Assembly (NCBI GenBank): GCA_021731025.1
Contig: JAKFYD010000022.1
Span: 1 to 48,480, forward strand
DNA length: 48,480 bases
Reading direction: 5' to 3'
Source: Pseudobdellovibrionaceae bacterium
GTDB lineage: Bacteria; Bdellovibrionota; Bdellovibrionia; Bdellovibrionales; Bdellovibrionaceae
Of this stretch, positions 35,393 through 41,059 are shown piece by piece. Numbering within the stretch: the stretch's first letter is position 1; the number at the start of each line of letters is the position of its first letter. The notes under the pieces were generated by a model. It was not told the DNA's origin and ran no database searches. It saw only the letters and a program-made list of their open reading frames with translations. The translations under genes were made by a program, and so were the position numbers.

Positions 35393-35425
35393 AAAAGAGG
35401 AACTGGAAACAGTTCCTCTTTTTTT
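35393..35425. terminator. rho-independent terminator, probably bidirectional
   Basis: AAGAGGAACTG (35395-35405), loop GAAA, CAGTTCCTCTT (35410-35420), then TTTTT. The A-run before the stem gives the T-run for the opposite strand, so it can also end the minus-strand kinase gene, whose stop lies at its edge (35424). Confidence 0.9.
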
Positions 35426-36839
35426 ATGCAGCATAGTTTAAAGTGAGCTCGATGCAGGTGCCGGGTTCGGTACTGTCTACAATGCGAATATTGCCACCCA
35501 TAAGCTCTATGTACTGCTTAACGATAGGTAAGCCCAAGCCAGTTCCTTTTTCGCCTTGAGTGCCTACGGAAGTGGTCGCGTGATTCAAATCAAATATTTT
35601 GCTGCGTTTTTCACGAGCAATGCCGACGCCAGAATCTTGAATCGAAAGACAAACCTTTCCGGGTGTGGGTTGGGTCGTGCGAATCAAAATGCTCCCGCCA
35701 CTGTGCGAGAATTTAATCGCATTGGAAATGATATTTGACAGCACATGGTTTTTTAGCCAGGCGTCGTTAGCCATCACACGCTGGTTTTTTAAATCCTTGT
35801 GATCGAAATCAACGGTGACATTTTTTTCCCGAAGCTTGTCTTCGTAAAGATCAATAACATCTTTAATAATGATATCCAGGGAAACTTGTTGAAGTGAAAT
35901 GTCTGTTTTTCCTAATCTTTGAGCATAAGAATTTCGGGCTTCTTTTAGAATCGAGTCCACGGCACTGATCGCCTTTTTAATTTTTTCAGCCTTAGTTCCT
36001 AGCAGCGACATGAATTTCTCGGGGTCAGATATAAGGAGATTGACGTTATAAAAGACAATGGTCAGTGGATTGGTAAGATCATGAACCAAGGCCGCCAAAC
36101 GAGACTGACTGTCTTTGAGGATAGAATCAATATCATCGTTTTTCTTCTTTAAGTTTTCAAAAGCTAAAGTTAATTGAGCATTAGATTCACGCAATTGCAG
36201 GGTTCGGATAGCAACTTCATCGACCAGGCCCTTGTTATAATCTTGTGAAATTTTTTGTAGGATGAAGATAGGAACATACACAGCAAAACAAAAGAAAAAG
36301 ATAAGTGTGAATGAAAAACCAACGATAGCGTATTCAGGAACGGGGCGTACAAACGGGTAATCAAAAAAGTGGATGGCATCAACGATCAATAGAAATCGAT
36401 ATCCATTCGTGATGATATCGCTTTGGCTTCTTTTAAAATGTTTAAATGCTCCGTGAAATAGAATGACTCCACAGGCTGCGCAAAAAATTCCTGAGCCTGT
36501 AGTGTAAGAGCTACCAAGGGCAAGGAGAGCAGCCCCACAGAGGACACTAAGTCCTAATATGTAGTTATAGAAACGGAATGGAAGCTGGGTGTCTGTCGCG
36601 ACTGCTAAAATCTTTAGCAAGTAGATAACCGTCATCCAGTTCGCAGAAAAGGCCAGGAATCCAAATAGATCAGTTTGAGGGAACAGGCCCTGTCCTATAA
36701 AACCCAAAATTCCGCTCACCCAAAATAGAAGTAATTTTTTCAGAAGGCGATGTTTAAATCCAATCCACAGAAAACACGCCATGCCCGTGCTCAGAAGTAA
36801 AACGACGCCGAAGATGAAGATTAACGTGTTTAAAATCAT
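35424..36839 (-). CDS. membrane sensor histidine kinase
   Basis: 471 residues. Several hydrophobic segments cover 1-195 (for example 5-25, 34-50, 58-80, 93-110, 116-130, 145-160 and 172-193), a multi-pass sensor of unknown ligand. Coiled linker 200-245. The phospho-acceptor box is AALVHDLTNPLTIV (His253): H-D-L-T-N-P instead of the usual H-E-L-R-T-P. HATPase: HVLSNIISNAIKFSHSGG (N box), DSGVGIAREKR and GEKGTGLGLPIV. No receiver domain, so an unlinked response regulator must be the partner. Divergent from the GNAT-like gene. Weak ribosome site. Confidence 0.88.
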   Translation of the reverse strand: MILNTLIFIFGVVLLLSTGMACFLWIGFKHRLLKKLLLFWVSGILGFIGQGLFPQTDLFGFLAFSANWMTVIYLLKILAVATDTQLPFRFYNYILGLSVLCGAALLALGSSYTTGSGIFCAACGVILFHGAFKHFKRSQSDIITNGYRFLLIVDAIHFFDYPFVRPVPEYAIVGFSFTLIFFFCFAVYVPIFILQKISQDYNKGLVDEVAIRTLQLRESNAQLTLAFENLKKKNDDIDSILKDSQSRLAALVHDLTNPLTIVFYNVNLLISDPEKFMSLLGTKAEKIKKAISAVDSILKEARNSYAQRLGKTDISLQQVSLDIIIKDVIDLYEDKLREKNVTVDFDHKDLKNQRVMANDAWLKNHVLSNIISNAIKFSHSGGSILIRTTQPTPGKVCLSIQDSGVGIAREKRSKIFDLNHATTSVGTQGEKGTGLGLPIVKQYIELMGGNIRIVDSTEPGTCIELTLNYAA

Positions 36840-36953: not shown

Positions 36954-37712
36954 ATGAGACATTTTATCAAAGAGCATTATTCACATTTATATTCGCAATC
37001 TCAACTCGAGATGTACCAAGACTTGTCCTTGTACATTTTGCCGGGCAAATACTGGGGAAAGCGCTTAAAAAGCATTTACCACCAGGCATTCTCTTTTTGG
37101 CACTTCCACTGGAACAAGGCATTTACGGAAATAAACTTGCAAATGAGTTCGACTAGCGAGGAATTTTGTCGTCATGATAAAGCGATCGTTCTTGTCCATC
37201 GAGATAAAGTCGTTGGACTTGCGTTGGTGGACCGTTTTGATCTGACAAACCCTATACATCGTAAGCACAATTACTTTTCAAATTATCCAGAGCTAATTGT
37301 CGAGAAATTAGCGCAGGTTTCTCGAGGTGTTATAACTCGAACATTTGGGTATTTGGCAATTGATCCTGAATATCGAAAAAATTATGCCTTGGCCGATATC
37401 ATTCTTGGGTTGGCCGTAAAAGAAATAAACTGCGAGTCCAATCCTTTTATGATCACCTACACACGGAATACTCGGAAGACTAATGAACTCACTTATCGCC
37501 TAGGGGCTAAATGCATTGGCGAAAGACTCTTGGTTCGTGGCGAAGACTCTGATTTTGTTTATTTTGATCATTCAAGTTTAGAGGTTTTGAAGCAACACCC
37601 TCAGTTTGCTGTTATCGACAGGCTCTGGGAAAAAAGAATTACTGACCCTCTATCTGAAGCTTATGAAAACCAATTCCTTAAAGGAGAATTAAATGAAGAA
37701 TCTCAGTTGTGA
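36954..37712 (+). CDS. GNAT-like N-acyltransferase fold protein
   Basis: 252 residues, cytoplasmic. Residues 76-95 (KAIVLVHRDKVVGLALVD) and 131-156 (FGYLAIDPEYRKNY then ALADIILGLAVKEI) resemble beta strands 2-4 and the acyl-CoA or acyl-carrier binding motif A of GNAT enzymes, here R-K-N-Y-A instead of R-G-x-G-A. Length and the variant motif fit FeeM-like N-acyl amino acid synthases better than small acetyltransferases; this is inference. It overlaps the diiron oxidase gene by 20 bp, so the two are coupled and may act on one metabolite. No ribosome site seen before the ATG. Confidence 0.55.
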   Translation: MRHFIKEHYSHLYSQSQLEMYQDLSLYILPGKYWGKRLKSIYHQAFSFWHFHWNKAFTEINLQMSSTSEEFCRHDKAIVLVHRDKVVGLALVDRFDLTNPIHRKHNYFSNYPELIVEKLAQVSRGVITRTFGYLAIDPEYRKNYALADIILGLAVKEINCESNPFMITYTRNTRKTNELTYRLGAKCIGERLLVRGEDSDFVYFDHSSLEVLKQHPQFAVIDRLWEKRITDPLSEAYENQFLKGELNEESQL

Positions 37713-38379
37713 ACAAGTTTACGAAAAAATGTTATCGGCCATTGATGAAATTGCAGAGTCTGCACATCAGTTTCCTTGGGAAGATAAAAATCATTACGCG
37801 AATTGGCTGGCACAAAGCTTCTTCTACGTTCAGTGGACGACTCGTCAGTTAGCATTGGCATCAGCAAAATCAAAACCGATGACTGAAGATTCCCTTCACT
37901 GGCGTTTTATAGAAGAAGCTAAAGAAGAGAAGCGTCACGAATTGTTGGCTCTTCAAGATTTGAAAAATTTGGGTTTTTCTCCAGAGCAGTTTGAAGAATT
38001 GCCTCACACTTCTTTTTTCTATCAGACGCTTTCTTACCTCATTGAAAACGAGCATCCCATTGCGATACTTGGTTATTCATTAACCTTAGAAGGTTTTGCG
38101 GCTAAACGTTTGACTGAAATCTATCCGCGCATTAAAAATGCTCATCCTGAAAAAAGCATCTCTTTCTTAAAGCTTCACTGTGAAGTGGATGTGGATCATT
38201 TTGATAATGCTTTGCCTTACTTGAAGTCGTGCCCTGTTGAGCTTTTGCCTTTGGTTGCTCAAGGGATTAATCAGTGCCGCGCGGTTTATAAAGGCATCCT
38301 TACCGATATTCAAGCTGACGAGAAATCAAAGCTTAAAATGAGACAACCTCGTAGCGAAAACGAACTTGCGTTTCAATAA
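37693..38379 (+). CDS. heme-oxygenase-like diiron oxidase (iron-containing redox enzyme family)
   Basis: 228 residues, all helical. Candidate metal ligands: EEAKEEKRHELL (Glu75/Glu78/Glu79, His82), TLEGF (Glu133), and LHCEVDVDHFDNA (His162, Asp166, His169 with Glu164/Asp168 nearby). This is the spacing expected for the heme-oxygenase-like diiron proteins, which lack a heme His at the start and activate O2 for hydroxylation, desaturation or C-C cleavage. GGAG ribosome site inside the end of the preceding gene. Substrate unknown. The coupling to a GNAT-like enzyme suggests a small biosynthetic pair. Confidence 0.75.
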   Translation: MKNLSCEQVYEKMLSAIDEIAESAHQFPWEDKNHYANWLAQSFFYVQWTTRQLALASAKSKPMTEDSLHWRFIEEAKEEKRHELLALQDLKNLGFSPEQFEELPHTSFFYQTLSYLIENEHPIAILGYSLTLEGFAAKRLTEIYPRIKNAHPEKSISFLKLHCEVDVDHFDNALPYLKSCPVELLPLVAQGINQCRAVYKGILTDIQADEKSKLKMRQPRSENELAFQ

Positions 38380-38413: not shown

Positions 38414-38439
38414 AAAGCACTCTGAAAGCAGGGTGCTTT
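38414..38439 (+). promoter_or_regulatory. hairpin covering the ribosome site of the next gene
   Basis: AAAGCACTCTG (38414-38424), loop AAAG, CAGGGTGCTTT (38429-38439): 11-bp stem with one G-U pair. The AGGG ribosome site of the kinase ATG (38441) is inside the right arm. It may work as a terminator for the upstream pair or as a translation block on the kinase. Confidence 0.6.
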
Positions 38440-38440
38440 G

Positions 38441-41059
38441 ATGATCAAAGGCGACACGTGGAACTGGCGGTTTATTCCTCTTATCTTTGGGGGGCTTAGT
38501 CTATGTGTTGTCATTATGGGCATCTTTGTCAGTCATTACCTTTCCAACGAATACACGACAGCCATTGAAATCAATCAACGATGGACCGCCTACCTCGAAG
38601 AGGTGGACGAACTTCACCGCTTCGCTGGTGAGGTCAACCTGCCTGGTAATGATGTTTTTGATACAAAGAATCCCGATAAAGATGTTAAGCATTTTGAAAC
38701 AGCCTTACACCGATTTAATGTCAAGCTAGAGATGATACAGGTCCATCTCGCTCGCGAAAATGTTCCTCTGACAAGAGAGCTTTCCGAGAGTATTGCCAGA
38801 GTGCAAGGTGACATTGCCGACATGTCCATCCAAGAGCGTTCGATTTTTGAGAATTTCAAAAAGGGAAATTTCGAGGAGGCCACCCGCAAAATGGCATTAA
38901 TGGATCGTGAGTACATCAATGTTAGGGAATCCATCTTCAGTGTGCGGCGGGTTCTTCGGGGCATGCAAAACGACGTGCTCCGAGAGCAGCGGGAGCATGG
39001 CCAAAATCTTCGCAAACAAGAAATCTTTTTTATTTTTACCTTGGGGCTTATTGCGATCCTTGTAATCACCTATGGTGCTCGTTTATCGCGGCTTGTTTCT
39101 AAAGCGAATCATTTGTTTGAACAAAAAAGAAAAGCTTTGGACGTTTCTTCGATAGTGATTATCGTTAATCCCTTAGGAAAAATTGTCTATGTGAATAAAA
39201 ACTTGCTTCGTCTCAGTGGATATTCACAAGAAGAACTCGAGGGTAAAAATTATCGGGATTTCAATTCAGATGAGTCTTTTGGAAAGCAATTTGATGAGCT
39301 TTGGCGAAGTATGTCGGCTAAAAAAGTTTGGCGGGGTGAGTTTAAAAATCATTCAAAGTCGGGCCGTCCTTACTGGGTCAACTCGACGGTGGTTCCATTG
39401 CTGGATGAAAACGGTGAGCTTGATAGCATCGTTGACGTGCAATTCGATATTACGGACAGTAAACAAATTCAAGCTGACTTAGTCGAAGCGAAAACCCAAG
39501 CCGAACTGGCTCATGCCACAAAGGCGCGATTTCTAGCAAACATGAGCCATGAAATTCGCACGCCCATGAATGGAATTATTGGAATGACCAGTTTGCTGAT
39601 GGATTTCACGAAAGATCCTTTGCATCTCGAGCGCTTGAAGATTATCCAAAATTGCGGAAATTCACTTTTAGATCTCATCAACGATGTGCTGGATTTTTCA
39701 AAACTCGAAGTCGATAAAGTCGAGCTTGAAAATGAACCTTTCGATGTGCATGCGACAGCAAAAGAAGTTGTTGAACTGCTGGGGACTCGGGCTTCTGAAA
39801 AAGGCATTCCTTTAAATTATCTTCCCGATGCACAGATGCCGACTTGGATCAAAGGCGATGTCACACGCTTTCGGCAAATTTTAACCAACCTGGTGAGCAA
39901 TGCTCTTAAGTTCACCGAAAAAGGTGGAGTTAAAATTTTGAGCTCAGCGAAAAAATCAGACGATGGTCATTGGCTCGTCGAATTCGCCGTAAAAGACACA
40001 GGAATTGGGATTCCCCCAGAGCTCAGAGATAGACTGTTTCAGTCTTTCTCTCAAGTCGACGCATCGACAACTCGAAGATTCGGCGGAACGGGATTAGGCT
40101 TAGTGATCAGTAAAGGCCTTTGTGAAAAAATGGGTGGAACTATTCGCGTTGAAAGCGAAGTTGGAAAGGGCTCAACATTTTTCTTTTCGATGAAGGTGTC
40201 GGAAGTTATTGAGACCCACCTTCAAAAAACGCAAAGTGTCCCCAGCGAATACGACGAGACTATGGGTAAAGCTCATCCCTTGCGCATTCTGGTGGCCGAA
40301 GACAATCGCACGAATCAGTTGGTCATTCTTGGGCTTCTCGGAAAATTTGGTTATCAAGCTGATATTGCGTCGGATGGTAAACAAGTTTTAGAACAACTTG
40401 AAAAGAAGAATTACGATTTGATTTTTATGGACAGTCATATGCCCGAGATGGATGGCTTCGCGGCAACTCGCGAGATCATCAAGAGATTCGATTCAAAGTC
40501 AAAGCCACGGCCGAAGATCATTTCGCTTTCGGCGAGCACTATGAAGCAGGATATTGATAAATGCTTTGAATCGGGAATGGATGGCTTTGTCGGAAAGCCA
40601 ATCACCATCGCGGCACTTATAAAAACTTTAAGTCATTGTCAGTCATCCGGTTCCCATGAAGCTAACTTTGAAAAGGTAAATAAACAGATGCAAAAAAAAC
40701 CATCGACCGTTTTCGACTCTAAAACATTTTTAGAACGCTTTGCTGGATTGGAAGCCTTAGCACATGAGGCTATTGGTAGTTTTTTAGAGATGTTGCCGGG
40801 TCTTATGGAAGATCTAGAAAAAGCATTGAAAAATCATGATTCCCACAAAATTGAAATTTCGGCCCATACCATTAAGGGCTCCGTTGTTAATTTCTGCGCA
40901 GAAAGCTGTCGTGACCTTGCTTTTCAAATTGAAGAGATGAGCCATCAAAAAGATTTTCAAACTTCAGAAGCAATGACAGTTTTTAATAAATTAAAAAAAG
41001 AACTGGATCTTTTAAAAATCGAGTTGAATGAGTTTTGCGCTGAAAAGAAAAGCGCCTGA
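38441..41059 (+). CDS. hybrid histidine kinase with PAS, receiver and HPt domains
   Basis: 872 residues from ATG 38441; a TTG directly before it is less likely. Membrane helix about 11-32, extracytoplasmic helical sensor 33-195, second helix about 197-216, PAS 235-345, HisKA with His370 in MSHEIRTPMNGIIGM, HATPase (DTGIGIPPELRDRLF, GGTGLGLVIS), receiver with Asp664 in IFMDSHMPEMDG and Lys in GKPITI, HPt with His809 in ISAHTIKGSV. It contains the whole phosphorelay up to the final response regulator, which is not adjacent. The start region is unusual because its ribosome site lies in a stable hairpin. Confidence 0.94.
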   Translation: MIKGDTWNWRFIPLIFGGLSLCVVIMGIFVSHYLSNEYTTAIEINQRWTAYLEEVDELHRFAGEVNLPGNDVFDTKNPDKDVKHFETALHRFNVKLEMIQVHLARENVPLTRELSESIARVQGDIADMSIQERSIFENFKKGNFEEATRKMALMDREYINVRESIFSVRRVLRGMQNDVLREQREHGQNLRKQEIFFIFTLGLIAILVITYGARLSRLVSKANHLFEQKRKALDVSSIVIIVNPLGKIVYVNKNLLRLSGYSQEELEGKNYRDFNSDESFGKQFDELWRSMSAKKVWRGEFKNHSKSGRPYWVNSTVVPLLDENGELDSIVDVQFDITDSKQIQADLVEAKTQAELAHATKARFLANMSHEIRTPMNGIIGMTSLLMDFTKDPLHLERLKIIQNCGNSLLDLINDVLDFSKLEVDKVELENEPFDVHATAKEVVELLGTRASEKGIPLNYLPDAQMPTWIKGDVTRFRQILTNLVSNALKFTEKGGVKILSSAKKSDDGHWLVEFAVKDTGIGIPPELRDRLFQSFSQVDASTTRRFGGTGLGLVISKGLCEKMGGTIRVESEVGKGSTFFFSMKVSEVIETHLQKTQSVPSEYDETMGKAHPLRILVAEDNRTNQLVILGLLGKFGYQADIASDGKQVLEQLEKKNYDLIFMDSHMPEMDGFAATREIIKRFDSKSKPRPKIISLSASTMKQDIDKCFESGMDGFVGKPITIAALIKTLSHCQSSGSHEANFEKVNKQMQKKPSTVFDSKTFLERFAGLEALAHEAIGSFLEMLPGLMEDLEKALKNHDSHKIEISAHTIKGSVVNFCAESCRDLAFQIEEMSHQKDFQTSEAMTVFNKLKKELDLLKIELNEFCAEKKSA

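Follow-up and report, generated by a model that had tools for sequence, protein, structure and literature searches.

A GNAT-fold acyltransferase gene paired with a heme-oxygenase-like oxidase gene across Bdellovibrionota, a putative module for N-acylation and oxidation

The window, that is, the whole stretch of 48,480 nucleotides that was analysed, lies on contig C27 of the 3.49 Mb genome G000. It contains an open reading frame (ORF) for a predicted GNAT-fold N-acyltransferase (referred to below as the GNAT), followed on the same strand by one for a predicted heme-oxygenase-like diiron oxidase (HDO). The features of the locus are, with HDO codons counted from position 37693:

35424-36839, minus strand: histidine kinase, divergent neighbour (PF02518, E 8.5e-24); context, outside the conserved module
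36954-37712, plus strand: GNAT-fold N-acyltransferase ORF, 252 amino acids, TGA stop, start codon uncertain
37693-37712, plus strand: 20-bp overlap of the GNAT and HDO reading frames
37693-38379, plus strand: HDO ORF, 228 amino acids, PF14518
37927-37938, plus strand: HDO ExxH ligand motif, E79-H82, invariant in 31 relatives and equivalent to Glu86 and His89 of MboA
38089-38091, plus strand: predicted HDO ligand E133, invariant in relatives
38176-38199, plus strand: HDO ligand motif H162-xxx-D166-xx-H169, invariant in relatives
38438-41059, plus strand: hybrid histidine kinase with PAS, HisKA, HATPase, REC and Hpt domains (Pfam), downstream neighbour; context only

Both ORFs, and the overlap between them, were confirmed at the places where a previous reading, made from the sequence only, had put them. 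The sequence AAAGGAG is located about 8 nt upstream of the ATG of the HDO, while no clear Shine-Dalgarno sequence is present ahead of the GNAT ORF, which makes its start codon uncertain. Between the stop codon of the HDO and the start of the hybrid histidine kinase, an inverted repeat (AAAGCAC...GTGCTTT, 38414-38439) forms a possible terminator or operator. The same genome contains a second, divergent pair on contig C33, of which the HDO is 37% and the GNAT 20% identical to the window proteins. The C33 copy is part of a complete set of XRE, cl1, HDO and GNAT genes (XRE and cl1 are described below), whereas the window copy has no adjacent cl1 or XRE gene and is flanked by the two histidine kinases instead.

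The GNAT ORF was modelled with AlphaFold2 using the family alignment, resulting in a pLDDT of 91.5. From this model, the assignment of the first protein to the GNAT alpha/beta fold is firm, and the absence of this fold, on which the sequence-only reading would have had to be abandoned, is not what was found. Z-scores of 8 or higher were obtained for 904 of the 999 aligned chains, and the top matches listed are GNATs. The acyl-homoserine-lactone (AHL) synthases BjaI and RpaI are the best structural matches (Z 15.5, 195-199 residues aligned, 8-9% identity), level with arylalkylamine N-acetyltransferases (Z 15.4) and followed by FeeM (Z 14.0); AHL synthases are also among the best matches found by Foldseek (E 1.5e-5 to BjaI). 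As the Z-scores fail to separate AHL synthases, FeeM and arylalkylamine N-acetyltransferases, the structural match fixes neither the acyl chain nor the acceptor. At the sequence level, Pfam and NCBIfam gave no match for the window GNAT, LuxI-type models included, and 36 of its relatives have scattered weak matches only, among which neither a LuxI-type model nor the FeeM model PF21926 occurs; none of the Bdellovibrionota members tested reaches PF21926. Profile comparison gives a weak match to FeeM (hhalign probability 39.6, E 3e-4). In the motif A pyrophosphate loop (Q/R-x-x-G-x-G/A), as aligned in GNAT alignment A2, R141 is near-invariant and the glycines are mostly absent. The protein can be called FeeM-like, as it had been, with regard to its fold, but not with regard to its sequence, and AHL synthases and arylalkylamine N-acetyltransferases score equally or higher. 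Neither FeeM nor AHL synthase was adopted as a label for the window GNAT, because the fold scores tie with those of other GNATs. Another GNAT-like family (MKLQIVIIDEPIH...), divergent and scarcely recognised by profile A2, was observed at L071:7283-8005, L072:7234-7941, L230:3457-4203 and L231:4080-4817, with an HDO alongside in L071 and L072 and none in L230 and L231.

The HDO ORF matches PF14518 (iron-containing redox enzyme) with an E-value of 6.7e-13 and 49.3 bits, against a cut-off of 28.9, and its AlphaFold2 model, again from the family alignment, has a pLDDT of 95.7. In the model, the chain adopts the seven-helix heme oxygenase fold. The closest solved structure is 3dde (Sden_3740; Z 22.7, 20% identity), and the next matches are HrmI, UndA and CADD (Z about 18.5 over 198-219 residues), with TenA and heme oxygenases close behind (Z 17-18). 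Residues E79, H82, D89, G127, E133, H162, D166 and H169 are invariant in the alignment of all 31 GNAT-linked HDOs. From this conservation and the profile alignment to MboA, a 3-His/3-carboxylate site made up of E79, H82, E133, H162, D166 and H169 is predicted. These six residues had been part of the ligand set put forward from the sequence; the other two members of that set do not hold, as only the window copy and the two relatives nearest to it have a glutamate at residue 75, most others having a histidine, while E78, although near-invariant, is by analogy with MboA not at the ligand position. The identification of the protein as a diiron oxidase candidate is borne out by the Pfam match, the modelled fold and the invariant ligands. 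Such a 3-His/3-carboxylate set is canonical for HDOs according to a 2026 review (PMC13108848), in which about a dozen members of the superfamily are counted as characterised, acting chiefly on fatty and amino acids.

Co-occurrence of the two genes was surveyed in an even set of 241 Bdellovibrionota genomes, with the GNAT present in 106 and some PF14518-like HDO in 132. The HDO matches were split into two classes, 107 strong and 42 weaker PF14518-like ones. A GNAT lies within 3 kb of 103 of the 107 strong matches and, in the same genomes, of one of the 42 weaker matches, which is an HDO fragment (L237). The pairing is far beyond chance and occurs throughout the phylum; the genes are not, as the sequence-only reading had considered possible, unpaired in relatives. 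A GNAT is also located at nearly every HDO locus among 80 relatives, and a pattern scan of the genome contigs with the tighter alignment A3 yielded 15 loci only. Two of the four unpaired strong HDOs are at contig ends (G224 and G029) and a third has a divergent GNAT-like gene beside it (G040). The fourth, in G006, has been kept without an adjacent GNAT and seems truly unpaired.

The arrangement of the 103 pairs varies: in 87 the GNAT precedes the HDO, in 11 the HDO precedes the GNAT, four pairs are divergent and one is convergent. The median gap, measured between aligned ends, is 44 bp. In G244, the GNAT and HDO domains are fused in a single 458-residue ORF. Conserved proximity with varying order and orientation, together with retained duplicates and the fusion, indicates that the GNAT and the HDO are functionally coupled. 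Alternatively, the two enzymes could work in parallel branches.

Two types of regulator-like genes recur beside the module: genes for XRE-type HTH proteins (HTH_31/HTH_3) and for an undescribed family of proteins of about 245 residues, cl1 (alignment A4). A cl1 gene is found within 5 kb of at least 70 of 131 GNATs, with XRE genes directly beside it, and orphan cl1 copies, up to six per genome, are located far from any GNAT. Six such copies are present in G036 and tandem copies in G192 and G170 (cl1 ORFs L167-L171 and L173), a pattern like that of LuxR solos. By eye, cl1 has a PAS-like sequence pattern, and one member matches Pfam PAS_3 with an E-value of 0.088; a PAS identity was not firmly supported by Pfam, by a PDB profile search or by a PAS alignment, the latter being a weak test with a single PAS sequence. 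No oxidase or cl1 gene is located near eight second GNAT copies in Bdellovibrionaceae (L149-L152 and L233-L236), the majority of which belong to the B. bacteriovorus genus (g7). At L064:5462-6193, a short-chain dehydrogenase/enoyl-ACP-reductase-like gene (PF13561, E 2.4e-45) abuts the GNAT on its upstream side, on the same strand. Another PF14518 HDO, in G124 (L180:3776-4673), adjoins a 77-residue acyl-carrier-like ORF; judged by eye, the cluster also has genes resembling a ketosynthase and a short-chain dehydrogenase.

For the 28 GNATs lacking an HDO within 3 kb, the neighbouring genes were read. About ten of these GNATs have a membrane fatty-acid desaturase nearby (PF00487, with E-values of 1e-36 or lower in tested members), which at several loci overlaps or abuts the GNAT. 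A fusion of the GNAT to a VAO-type FAD oxidase (770 residues) occurs in G195, and an oxidase of this type is encoded by a gene overlapping the GNAT in G163; the GNAT of G242 has an acyl-CoA dehydrogenase next to it, and that of G054 a divergently oriented gene for a B12-binding radical SAM protein. HDO and desaturase are both present at L069, L077 and L155. Both fatty-acid desaturases and acyl-CoA dehydrogenases are enzymes that modify acyl chains. The HDO is replaced by unrelated oxidases, fatty-acid desaturases and VAO-type FAD oxidases, most of them enzymes of acyl-chain chemistry, and this replacement gives the strongest hint that the product of the acyltransferase, or its acyl precursor, is what the partner oxidises. 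Unrelated oxidases swapped at one operon position amount to a natural experiment on the purpose of the oxidation step.

Among 397 Pseudomonadota genomes, PF14518 is present in 131 and FeeM (PF21926) in 125. By coordinates, an HDO and a true FeeM are adjacent in three of them (G253, G321 and G390). The G321 FeeM matches PF21926 with an E-value of 1.3e-29, while its HDO matches the Bdellovibrionota HDO profile with an E-value of 8.5e-71 and is placed inside the GNAT-linked clade of the tree (0.88 support); the HDOs of G253 and G390 belong to another lineage. The G321 pair links the GNAT, itself without a family name, with a known N-acyl amino acid synthase, despite the weak direct profile similarity.

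The reading we favour, in our judgement rather probable, is that the products of the two genes form a biosynthetic module of two enzymes in which an amine or amino acid is N-acylated and then oxidised with O2. For donor, acceptor, step order, product and biological role, we infer the following scheme. The GNAT-fold enzyme would acylate an amine, for which an amino acid is the likeliest candidate; the group transferred is probably a fatty acyl carried by CoA or ACP. The HDO, with its predicted 3-His/3-carboxylate diiron site, would then use O2 to oxidise the conjugate, on the acyl chain or the amino-acid part, by desaturation, hydroxylation or oxidative decarboxylation. As XRE and cl1 genes stand beside the module across much of the phylum, an XRE regulator and the cl1 protein plausibly control the product or sense it. 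That the pair could make and oxidise an N-acyl compound had already been suggested from the sequence; the suggestion is strengthened by the oxidase swapping, the fusion and the true-FeeM pair of Pseudomonadota, with substrate and product staying putative. Counting against the favoured reading are the thin sequence matches of the GNAT, the lack of XRE and cl1 genes at the window copy, the second GNAT copies that have no neighbouring oxidase and the unpaired HDO of G006.

A role that is compatible with this chemistry, and that we put forward tentatively, is cell-to-cell signalling, with the GNAT as an autoinducer synthase, the oxidase tailoring the signal and cl1 and XRE proteins receiving it. 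The proximity of the GNAT fold to AHL synthases, the frequent cl1 genes with XRE genes directly beside them and the many orphan cl1 copies, reminiscent of LuxR solos, make this an attractive hypothesis. Against it, the resemblance of cl1 to PAS domains is weak, with our own PAS test being negative, and the window pair has neither a cl1 nor an XRE gene next to it. A wider version, which is speculative, holds that Bdellovibrionota produce undescribed oxidised N-acyl signals by means of a LuxI/FeeM-shaped synthase and an oxidase that can be exchanged (an HDO, a membrane desaturase or a flavin oxidase) and would set the identity of the signal, to be read by cl1/XRE and by cl1 solos.

The reverse order of steps, with the HDO first making an acyl or amine precursor for the GNAT, by UndA-like fatty-acid oxidation or as an unusual amino acid, seems doubtful to us. 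UndA and MboA show that the fold can handle both substrate classes (PMC13108848, PMC13185094), and this order does not clash with the gene data, differing from the favoured acylation-first scheme in step order alone; in the Tyz precedent, however, acylation precedes oxidation. It is unlikely that the product is a structural aminolipid comparable to ornithine or glycine lipids, whose acyl chain the HDO would modify. GNAT-fold N-acyltransferases (OlsB) start aminolipid synthesis, and desaturases do occur as alternative partners of the GNAT. Glycine-lipid genes, glsB and glsA, are named in PMC12479983; however, no OlsA/GlsA-type O-acyltransferase was noticed among the recurrent neighbours clustered, where regulators recur instead. 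It is most improbable that the HDO belongs among ordinary TenA thiaminases, PqqC proteins or heme oxygenases and has an unrelated GNAT beside it; this was rejected, because the metal ligand set is complete and invariant, while pairing and fusion with the GNAT also speak against what is suggested by a common fold and the TenA and heme oxygenase Z-scores.

The pair is real and conserved; each enzyme comes from a known superfamily, and their combination adds a variation to "acyltransferase plus oxidase" biosynthesis. No description of the GNAT/HDO pair was found in the literature searched (open-licence papers). In a phylum known for its predators, a conserved and repeatedly duplicated pair of enzymes, accompanied by regulators, appears to be dedicated to a small molecule not described in that literature. 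In G036, presumably B. bacteriovorus, the GNAT lies at 2370668-2371315 and the HDO at 2369966-2370601. The two or three adjacent genes in B. bacteriovorus present a simple genetic target for finding a predator metabolite or signal, and N-acyl conjugates would be an added substrate class for the HDO superfamily.

When compared with known systems, the window HDO is closest in structure to 3dde, the uncharacterised HDO-fold protein Sden_3740 of Shewanella denitrificans. The mangotoxin acetylenase MboA (PDB entry 9ypi), an HDO aligned with a profile E-value of 4e-7, has Glu86, His89, Glu143, His172, Asp176 and His181 as its crystallographic ligands (PMC13185094), which correspond to E79, H82, E133, H162, D166 and H169; however, the substrate of MboA is a tripeptide produced by ATP-grasp ligases, and MboB serves as its reductase (PMC13185094). 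FeeM (PDB entry 2g0b) shares the GNAT fold and, in the three Pseudomonadota genomes, an adjacent HDO, but the Bdellovibrionota members tested do not match its Pfam model and the profile match is weak. BjaI and RpaI, although the best structural matches of the window GNAT, have very low identity to it and no counterpart in LuxI-type sequence matches, and no LuxR was noticed beside the Bdellovibrionota pair. The nearest parallel in logic is the TyzA/TyzC system for tyrazolone of M. tuberculosis and its relative OxzA/OxzB (PMC10404671), which likewise combine a GNAT-fold N-acyltransferase with an oxidase that uses O2 to act on the N-acyl product. TyzA N-acylates tyrosine or phenylalanine with lauroyl-CoA, and its model best matches FeeM and BjaI; TyzC is a flavin oxidase that desaturates the N-acyl-tyrosine with O2 (PMC10404671). 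N-acyl dehydrotyrosine clusters pair a synthase with a nitroreductase-family desaturase in the same manner (PMC12479983). Tyz and Oxz also have a ThiF cyclase, whereas none was seen among the recurrent neighbours clustered in Bdellovibrionota, a set in which not every neighbour was typed. The oxidase position is taken by a flavin enzyme of the nitroreductase family in Tyz/Oxz and by an HDO, a fatty-acid desaturase or an FAD oxidase at the Bdellovibrionota loci. By this analogy, we propose that the window pair follows the Tyz logic, acylate and then oxidise, with a non-homologous diiron oxidase.
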